From Chloroflexaceae bacterium (GTDB lineage: Bacteria; Chloroflexota; Chloroflexia; Chloroflexales; Chloroflexaceae): a stretch of DNA of 64,000 nt. How positions within the stretch are numbered: position 1 is the stretch's first letter; each line of letters starts with the position of its first letter. The notes under the pieces are model-generated. The model had not been told where the DNA came from. It saw nothing but the letters and a program-made list of their open reading frames with translations, and did not search any database. The stretch lies in contig JANWYD010000002.1 in the NCBI GenBank assembly GCA_025057155.1, positions 1 to 64,000 on the forward strand, in the 5' to 3' direction. The position numbers were made by a program, and so were the translations under genes. Of this stretch, positions 1,221 through 42,338 are shown piece by piece.

Positions 1221-1423
1221 AGGGGAAACCAGGTTTCTCCCGGTCTCCGCTCGCCGGGAGGGGTTAGCGAGGGCGAAACCACCGTCTGTGGAGAGGGCGT
1301 AGGAGGGCAAAGCCCTCCCACGAATTTCTAGCCCGCCGTTGACGCGGCGTTCAGGAGAGAGTGTGGGAAGGCTTTGCTCTCCCAAAAACATCGCGGATAC
1401 GGCGCGCAGGCGCCACCCAAGAC

Positions 1424-1450
1424 AAACGCCCCTGCTCAGCAGGGGCGTTT
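1424..1450 (-). terminator. Strong hairpin terminator of the mini-gene
   Basis: A perfect 13-bp inverted repeat centred on one base (AAACGCCCCTGCT and its complement), read on the minus strand into TTTGTCTT. It lies 14 bases after the stop codon of the 21-codon ORF. Because the stem carries A and T runs on both sides it could act in both directions. Confidence 0.75.
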
Positions 1451-1464
1451 CGCTGAGAGCGGGG

Positions 1465-1530
1465 TCACCGGTTCGGTAAGACCTGGCGGGCCTCACCAGC
1501 GGCGACGCCCATACGCTTACTATCATTCAT
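1465..1530 (-). CDS. Putative 21-residue peptide (or structured RNA) mini-gene
   Basis: A short ORF starts MNDSKRMG and ends QVLPNR. What singles it out is its complete expression frame. It has a consensus promoter (1590-1618), a Shine-Dalgarno sequence matching the 16S 3' tail over 11 bases (AAGGAGGTGAT, 1535-1545) with 8 bases between its GGAGG core and ATG, and a strong terminator 14 bases after the stop. The transcript would be about 160 nt and contains nothing else. The peptide is basic, has no signal sequence or membrane segment, and I recognise no family. The same RNA can partly fold on itself (CGCTG near 1503 with CAGCG near 1454), so it may instead be a small regulatory RNA. It is not in frame with any neighbour. 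Confidence 0.5.
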   Translation of the reverse strand: MNDSKRMGVAAGEARQVLPNR

Positions 1531-1589
1531 GGGCATCACCTCCTTCGCGCCTGGACGGCTTACCTGGTTGTGCAACAGCCAGCACTGGT

Positions 1590-1618
1590 ACTATAACCAG
1601 GGAACGGGTTCGTGTCAA
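1590..1618 (-). promoter_or_regulatory. Consensus sigma70-type promoter of the mini-gene
   Basis: On the minus strand a perfect TTGACA (1613-1618), 17-base spacer and TATAGT (1590-1595). The predicted start of transcription near 1583 leaves a ~50-base leader before the 21-codon ORF. Confidence 0.75.
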
Positions 1619-1772: not shown

Positions 1773-2192
1773 TCAGGGCGTGGCGAGGGTGGGCGTCGGC
1801 GTCCCTGGCGGGACCGGCGTGCCGACCACCGGCGTTCGCAACAGCGAAGGGATCAACAGCGTCTGCCCTGTCTGCAACGCGTTGGGGTCGGTCAGGCCGT
1901 TGGCGGCTACCAGTTCGTCTACCGTGGTATTGAAGCGCTCGGCGATGGCGCTGAGGGTGTCGCCGGGCTGGACGGTGTAGAGCGCTGCAGGGGTGGGCGT
2001 GGGGCGTTCCAGCGAGGCGAGGGCCGTGGCCGTCGCGTCCACGTCGAGGGTTGGCGCAGGCGTGATGTCGAGGACCGCCGGCAGGGTTGGCAGGGTCGCG
2101 GTGGGGGGATCAGGAATGCAAGCGACGCAGACCAGTGCCAGACCAACGACCAGGGTGGCCCGCGGCGGATGCAGCAAGCGGTGAACTGCCAT
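1773..2192 (-). CDS. LysM-domain lipoprotein
   Basis: A 139-residue exported lipoprotein that probably binds peptidoglycan. The N-terminus is basic, then hydrophobic, and ends in the lipobox VCVAC with the lipidated cysteine at 25. A Pro/Thr-rich linker follows, then one LysM domain at about 70-115 (from YTVQPGDTLSAIAERF to TLLIP), then a Pro/Thr tail. The start at 2192 is chosen because it gives a normal lipoprotein signal; an in-frame ATG at 2276 would add 28 residues with no signal-like features. A good promoter lies upstream (2286-2315). It is a single-gene unit, probably with an envelope role. Confidence 0.8.
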   Translation of the reverse strand: MAVHRLLHPPRATLVVGLALVCVACIPDPPTATLPTLPAVLDITPAPTLDVDATATALASLERPTPTPAALYTVQPGDTLSAIAERFNTTVDELVAANGLTDPNALQTGQTLLIPSLLRTPVVGTPVPPGTPTPTLATP

Positions 2193-2285
2193 GGTATGAC
2201 GAACCTTGTGGAAATGCGGATCGGTCAGGAGGTTTAAAATAGGTGAATAATCCATGCGCTGATGGATCGGAAACAAGTGTTGTTC

Positions 2286-35544: not shown

Positions 35545-35884
35545 AGCCTCTCCTCCCTCATGCACCGAAAGCTAATGGATGGGTTTGACGAAAGAGCGAC
35601 GCCTCTATGGAGGGACGACTGATGAAGATTCAGAACATAAACGGGTATTCGCCCGGCAGCCCGGCGGCTGAAGCCGCAGGCTTCCGATGCGAAGCCCGCC
35701 TGCGCGGGCTATGCCGGATTTAATTCTTAGTCTTCATTAGTCGTTGCCCTTGCACGGCCCCTGTCCGGCAGGGTCATCCTTGCAGGACGTTCCGCAACCA
35801 CTCGCGTCCCTCCAACGGCGCCTATGGTATACTTGCCGCGCATCACGCATCAATGTTCTTGCCTGTGTCTGGAAAGGATGTGTT

Positions 35885-42104: not shown

Positions 42105-42204
42105 AGAACTGACCAGACAGCGCATAGCAGCATGGAATGCCGTATGCACCGGATCACAGTACGCGCGAACGAGCGCCCGCTCTGTCGCGCGTCACTGCGT
42201 CGTC

Positions 42205-42326
42205 TGGATCTTCTTTACATCCGGACTGTAACCGTCGGCCCCGGAGTTGCACCGGATCCTGCGTGCCTCGCAACACGCTCGTGGGCTATACCACCGATCG
42301 GGAATTTCACCCTGCCCCGAAGATCG
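42205..42326 (-). promoter_or_regulatory. FMN riboswitch (RFN element)
   Basis: On the minus strand: GATCTTCGGGGCAGGGTGAA, ATTCCCGATCGGTGGTATAG, CCCACGAGC, then GATCCGGTGCAACTCCGGGG, CCGACGGTTACAGTCCGGAT and the closing AAGAAGATC. These match the RFN consensus in order and spacing, including the outer helix. It controls ribX-ribY. Confidence 0.95.
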
Positions 42327-42338
42327 TTTGTTACCGGT

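Follow-up and report, generated by a model that had tools for sequence, protein, structure and literature searches.

A small transcription unit on the minus strand of a 64,000-nucleotide stretch of Chloroflexaceae DNA (the window) is, as judged from its conservation, a real stand-alone small RNA gene. At roughly even odds (about 0.5), we consider this single-copy gene to produce an RNA that doubles as a mini-mRNA and works as a bistable, translated switch, for which translating a short open reading frame (ORF) matters more than the peptide. The main rival is a micropeptide gene, and the next is a direct ribosome decoy or sensor.

The unit runs from 1618 to 1424 and is complete by sequence, every part of the mini transcription unit proposed in a first-pass annotation having been located (Table 1). 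Its −35 and −10 boxes together match 11 of 12 consensus positions in the window copy. The 5' mini-hairpin is conserved in alignments as CCGNYYAGG, cyanobacterial copies included, and lies 5' of the Shine-Dalgarno (SD) sequence, which is complementary to the entire 16S rRNA tail. Segment 3 overlaps the TGA in the window copy and lies 3' of the stop in relatives. The U-tract of the hairpin is short and mixed (the last three T lie inside the stem, followed by GTCTT), and the window hairpin is absent from the list produced by a simple terminator scan. By themselves, motif statistics leave the unit unremarkable, with a mildly unusual 2 promoter-like sites in 5 kb vs 0.7 expected and an RNA fold z-score of −1.9.

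Table 1. Features of the minus-strand unit and its upstream neighbour, in window coordinates.
Feature	Position	Strand	Basis
−35 box TTGACA	1613..1618	-	motif scan
−10 box TATAGT, 17-nt spacer	1590..1595	-	motif scan and alignment
5' mini-hairpin GCC-GUCCA-GGC	1549..1559	-	alignments
Shine-Dalgarno sequence AAGGAGGTGAT = AAGGAGGUGAU, 11-nt match	1535..1545	-	near-invariant among homologues
Segment 1 GGUGAUGCCCAU, SD/start-codon arm of helix A	1529..1540	-	covariation
Short ORF ATG...TGA, 21 codons, MNDSKRMGVAAGEARQVLPNR (ATG 1530-1528, TGA 1467-1465)	1465..1530	-	ORF call, alignment, frame conservation
Segment 2 AUGGGCGUCGCCG, within the ORF, partner of segment 1 (helix A) or segment 3 (helix B)	1500..1512	-	pairing analysis, covariation
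Segment 3 CGGUGACCCC, 3' arm of helix B	1461..1470	-	sequence and pairing analysis
Terminator-like hairpin AAACGCCCCUGCU-G-AGCAGGGGCGUUU, perfect 13 bp, 1-nt loop (arms 1450-1438/1436-1424)	1424..1450	-	repeat/hairpin search
LysM-domain putative lipoprotein gene, outside the unit, directly upstream on the same strand	1773..2276	-	PF01476, E 2.6e-18

The earlier claim that such an arrangement exceeds chance is borne out by conservation and not by these statistics. A DNA search of 60 relatives, the check in close relatives that had been proposed, returned clear homologues across the family and many within the order, and the alignments show the promoter, SD, ATG, short ORF and hairpin recurring across the order. 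A covariance model (R1) detects the element in 136 of 158 genomes from the class; among the near-complete genomes the figure is 89 of 93, and the element is nearly always present in exactly one copy. Because the unit is conserved across both order and class, a chance origin is excluded. The −35 and −10 pair was found in 59 of 61 homologues from four families (f1-f4), a simple scan finds a terminator-like hairpin 3' of the ORF in most homologues (54 of the 61 in f1-f4, for example), and the SD is near-invariant in all homologue groups. An exact core motif occurs in 45/301 Chloroflexota genomes, with no match to the reversed control motif among the Chloroflexota genomes listed. In a scan of named genomes, the SD-ATG-short ORF architecture was found in Chloroflexaceae, Herpetosiphonaceae, Kouleothrix, Thermomicrobiales, Ardenticatenia, Anaerolineae and Caldilineaceae and, outside Chloroflexota, in filamentous cyanobacteria and two Bdellovibrionota metagenome-assembled genomes; a third Bdellovibrionota match (L279) has an 18-codon ORF. 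With a cyanobacterial model (R2), 76 of 194 cyanobacterial genomes yield one copy each; those listed as negative are largely, not solely, of picocyanobacterial size (about 2 Mb).

Several other origins were considered and rejected. Ten matches in other phyla lack the architecture and are put down to chance. Phage origin was dismissed after a search of 2.9 million viral contigs gave 7 exact-motif matches, none seen with the architecture, and a multi-copy repeat or mobile element is discounted by the single copy in the source genome. There is no match to 6S RNA (RF00013) at the locus; the genome encodes its 6S RNA at another site (contig C20), and 6S RNA was detected in 15 of 21 genomes searched. 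As separate observations on copy number, two diverged copies, possible paralogues, occur in each of two genomes (G043, L047/L051; G045, L036/L042), a third genome (G595) has two overlapping R1 matches on opposite strands, and in Thermomicrobiales SJ248 two copies in opposite orientation lie ~100 bp apart at a contig end (L129, 5812-5933).

Of the 61 f1-f4 homologues, 37 have the LysM ORF just upstream, as do members of further families of the class, and where present in Chloroflexia it ends just 5' of the unit promoter; this shared neighbour suggests that the Chloroflexia copies are orthologues. The same proximity, on the same strand in many class members, would suit a 3'-UTR or terminator module of the LysM gene, a reading we hold to be very improbable since in 59/61 of f1-f4 the unit's own promoter separates the two, and since the unit is kept where the LysM gene was undetected, namely in f8, f6, several members of f1, f5 and f7, almost all other Chloroflexota, and cyanobacteria. 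Downstream genes vary by group and some are convergent, with a methyltransferase in the window and an rRNA operon in Herpetosiphon. As the LysM gene is often missing and the downstream genes vary, the unit is autonomous. Synteny comparison found no neighbour gene conserved across groups or phyla, and therefore the unit would not be the leader of a downstream gene, one of the roles first proposed for it. A short ORF, alternative helices and a terminator do make up the anatomy of an attenuator, but a cis-acting leader or attenuator is hardly credible given these differing and sometimes convergent downstream genes and the lack of any antiterminator that would overlap the switch helices and compete with the terminator. 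At 1302-1382, in the interval separating the unit from the methyltransferase gene, the window also carries a 20-nt inverted repeat (90%).

The self-complementary parts noted in the first-pass annotation are real, and form two mutually exclusive helices that covary. Segment 1 (GGUGAUGCCC, on the SD side) can pair with segment 2 (GGGCAUCACC, in the ORF) as helix A, which by the pairing layout hides the SD, or segment 2 can pair with segment 3 (GGUGAUGCCC or its counterpart, 3' of the stop) as helix B, which frees it. In helix A 94.6% of cells are paired over 39 distinct arm pairs, and in helix B (f1 and f4) 95.8%, counts that are inflated by the placing of segments 2 and 3 by best pairing. Double-sided changes in helix A number 11 cells vs 3.1 in shuffled controls (0/500 shuffles as high), with compensatory examples such as GCCC:GGGC to GCUA:UAGC and GCGG:CCGC, while helix B has 36 double-changed cells vs 10.8 shuffled and changes on both sides at five pairs; these cell counts come from arms joined via artificial A6 linkers and are raised by related sequences. 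Both helices lose their pairing when the partner is shifted by 1-3 columns, and arms swapped within families pair nearly as well (9.7 vs 10.4 of 11). In Anaerolineae, helix B occurs at the same place with an unrelated sequence (GGUCUGGUAGC/GCUACCAGACC in L089). By this scoring, cyanobacterial copies show a weak helix A or none, and its presence in one Bdellovibrionota copy is uncertain. Folds constrained to A or B have similar predicted energies, with family means within about 5 kcal/mol. For the window copy, helix A is predicted to be better by about 7 kcal/mol and helix B is weak, with a C-C mismatch, and because of this the copy may be biased to the OFF state or, having lost its stop, be decaying.

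Among 132 homologues, a set prefiltered to ORFs of 8-30 codons, ORF length is 12-24 codons with an in-frame stop. In four congeneric copies (L009-L012) a TAG closes the ORF after 15-16 codons; at this point the window has CAG (1485-1483, codon 16) and 6 more codons are read. By this comparison the 21-codon length is a derived read-through of an ancestral 15-codon ORF; of the 21-residue peptide first proposed, what stands is the selected start, frame and stop, and not the length. In one other genome (L235, 4000) the ORF has lost its stop and extends to 43 codons, where its relatives keep 15. ATG and segment 2 lie 17, 20, 23 or 26 nt apart, in the same phase in 88/88 distinct ORFs of the class, and therefore indels preserve the frame. 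In two families the SD-ATG spacing is longer by 3-4 nt, and the ATG and 15-codon ORF are retained.

This conservation of frame, start and stop, together with a very strong promoter and SD, is what a micropeptide gene would require, in which the 12-24 residue peptide is the acting product and the helices merely tune its translation. Such a gene is further favoured by the near-invariant C-terminus RLCAGAVL of the cyanobacterial copies, by an ORF tail in which synonymous changes modestly outnumber expectation (25 observed vs 17.4 expected), and by the translation proposed for the cyanobacterial RNA ncl0160 (PMC4734099, discussed below). Against it, neither the loop codons nor segment 2 carry more synonymous changes than expected (8 vs 9.9 and 4 vs 6.0, respectively), third positions there are mostly U as first and second positions vary, the C-terminal half of the peptide follows the RNA pairing, and peptides from different groups have little in common beyond M-[SD]-x-S. 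The micropeptide is on balance unlikely, if a serious competitor. Across the alignments, selection acts on start, frame and stop and hardly on amino-acid identity, a pattern which we read as selection for translating a short frame, with little on the peptide. A toxin or signal peptide, also suggested earlier, fits poorly with such a barely constrained sequence; a type I toxin was rejected, peptides such as MSDSKRMGVTAGEAR being hydrophilic by inspection. The earlier choice between a peptide and a small RNA need not be made, as RNA helices and a selected frame hold at once, with translation presumed.

An SD of 11 nt exceeds the length usually needed for translation. It is conceivable that the RNA is a direct ribosome decoy or sensor, its SD pairing with the 16S tail of 30S subunits and the short ORF aiding capture. 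The near-invariance of AAGGAGGUGAU across groups and its length beyond usual translational need would be explained in this way, as would the stretches resembling an anti-SD that some ORFs contain (GGCGUCACCUCCUUUCU in L108, for example). The loop codons following the start are mostly AGU and other NNU and are C-poor; they would avoid pairing with the G-rich SD and so keep the site open. A pure decoy, however, would have no need of a frame and stop, and we regard this explanation as improbable.

The bistable translated switch that we favour would work as follows. A strong sigma-70-type promoter would give an RNA of ~150 nt ending at its own terminator. During transcription, segment 2 would pair with segment 1 and hide the SD (helix A), until segment 3 emerges after the stop, captures segment 2 (helix B) and frees the SD; covariation backs both pairings, and their order is our inference. 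A ribosome would then translate the 12-24 codons through segment 2, and its passage, most likely the selected event, would reset the choice between A and B. The RNA would be a translation-gated regulator that acts in trans or affects its own stability, and not the leader of any neighbouring gene. A bolder version, which we offer tentatively and think doubtful, is that Chloroflexota and Cyanobacteriota share an ancient housekeeping RNA which uses the bistable SD switch to sense translation initiation, the ribosome traversing the mini-ORF to set the state and the output in trans tuning physiology to ribosome availability.

No Rfam 15 family matches the unit in the window or its homologues at either the gathering score or a relaxed E-value, and searches of open-access literature found nothing specific on Chloroflexota small RNAs or leader ORFs. 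Elsewhere in the window, there is an FMN riboswitch (RF00050, 102 bits) at 42204-42328 on the minus strand and one CRISPR-DR28 direct-repeat match, barely over the gathering score, at 35688-35711 on the plus strand; the very G/C-rich, low-complexity contig start (1-60) is probably an assembly artefact.

In cyanobacteria, ncl0160 is reportedly a small RNA of Mitschke et al. 2011. It was found through transcription start sites in Synechocystis and Nostoc, and has 83 homologues in 89 genomes, with a predicted peptide of 23-25 aa and always a ribosome binding site (PMC4734099, Brenes-Álvarez et al. 2016). The cyanobacterial homologue of our unit is probably ncl0160, matched by description alone and not by sequence: these copies are widespread outside small genomes and single, with ORFs of 23-24 codons (within the 23-25 of the ncl0160 type), a strong SD and a terminator-like hairpin. 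With 21 codons, ancestrally 15, the window copy is a homologue and not a standard member. Chloroflexi are absent from the main text of PMC4734099, and the part of that paper covered holds no mention of alternative helices for ncl0160, which is named in no other paper of the open-access set searched. On this partial view of the source, the family seems to have been described once, in one phylum and without a function.

A single-copy RNA gene found in almost every genome of a class, with kin in many cyanobacteria, should be important, and this family is missing from Rfam, falls below gene-caller length and was glimpsed only in cyanobacteria, probably as ncl0160. It offers a test case for RNAs in which selection keeps the act of translating a short ORF and not the peptide. 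CRISPRi libraries targeting ncRNAs exist (PMC10615215), and together with model cyanobacteria they make the family experimentally tractable now.

Three known kinds of system bear comparison with the unit. The dual-function sRNAs SR1/SR1P and SgrS/SgrT encode a small protein. Our unit resembles them as a stand-alone small RNA with its own promoter, terminator and short ORF, and at the sequence level promoter, terminator features and frame conservation are all present; it differs in that the ORF overlaps an SD-hiding switch and the amino acids are barely conserved. Leader-peptide translational attenuators such as ermC likewise combine a short ORF with exclusive helices that hide or expose an SD, whereas here there is no conserved downstream cistron and the switch governs the short ORF's own SD. 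In the hok-type mRNAs of type I toxin-antitoxin systems, metastable folds hide the SD until the 3' part joins in, much as segment 3 would here. In contrast to these, the peptide of our unit is hydrophilic and poorly conserved, no antisense antitoxin was seen, and the gene is carried as a single copy with apparently vertical inheritance.
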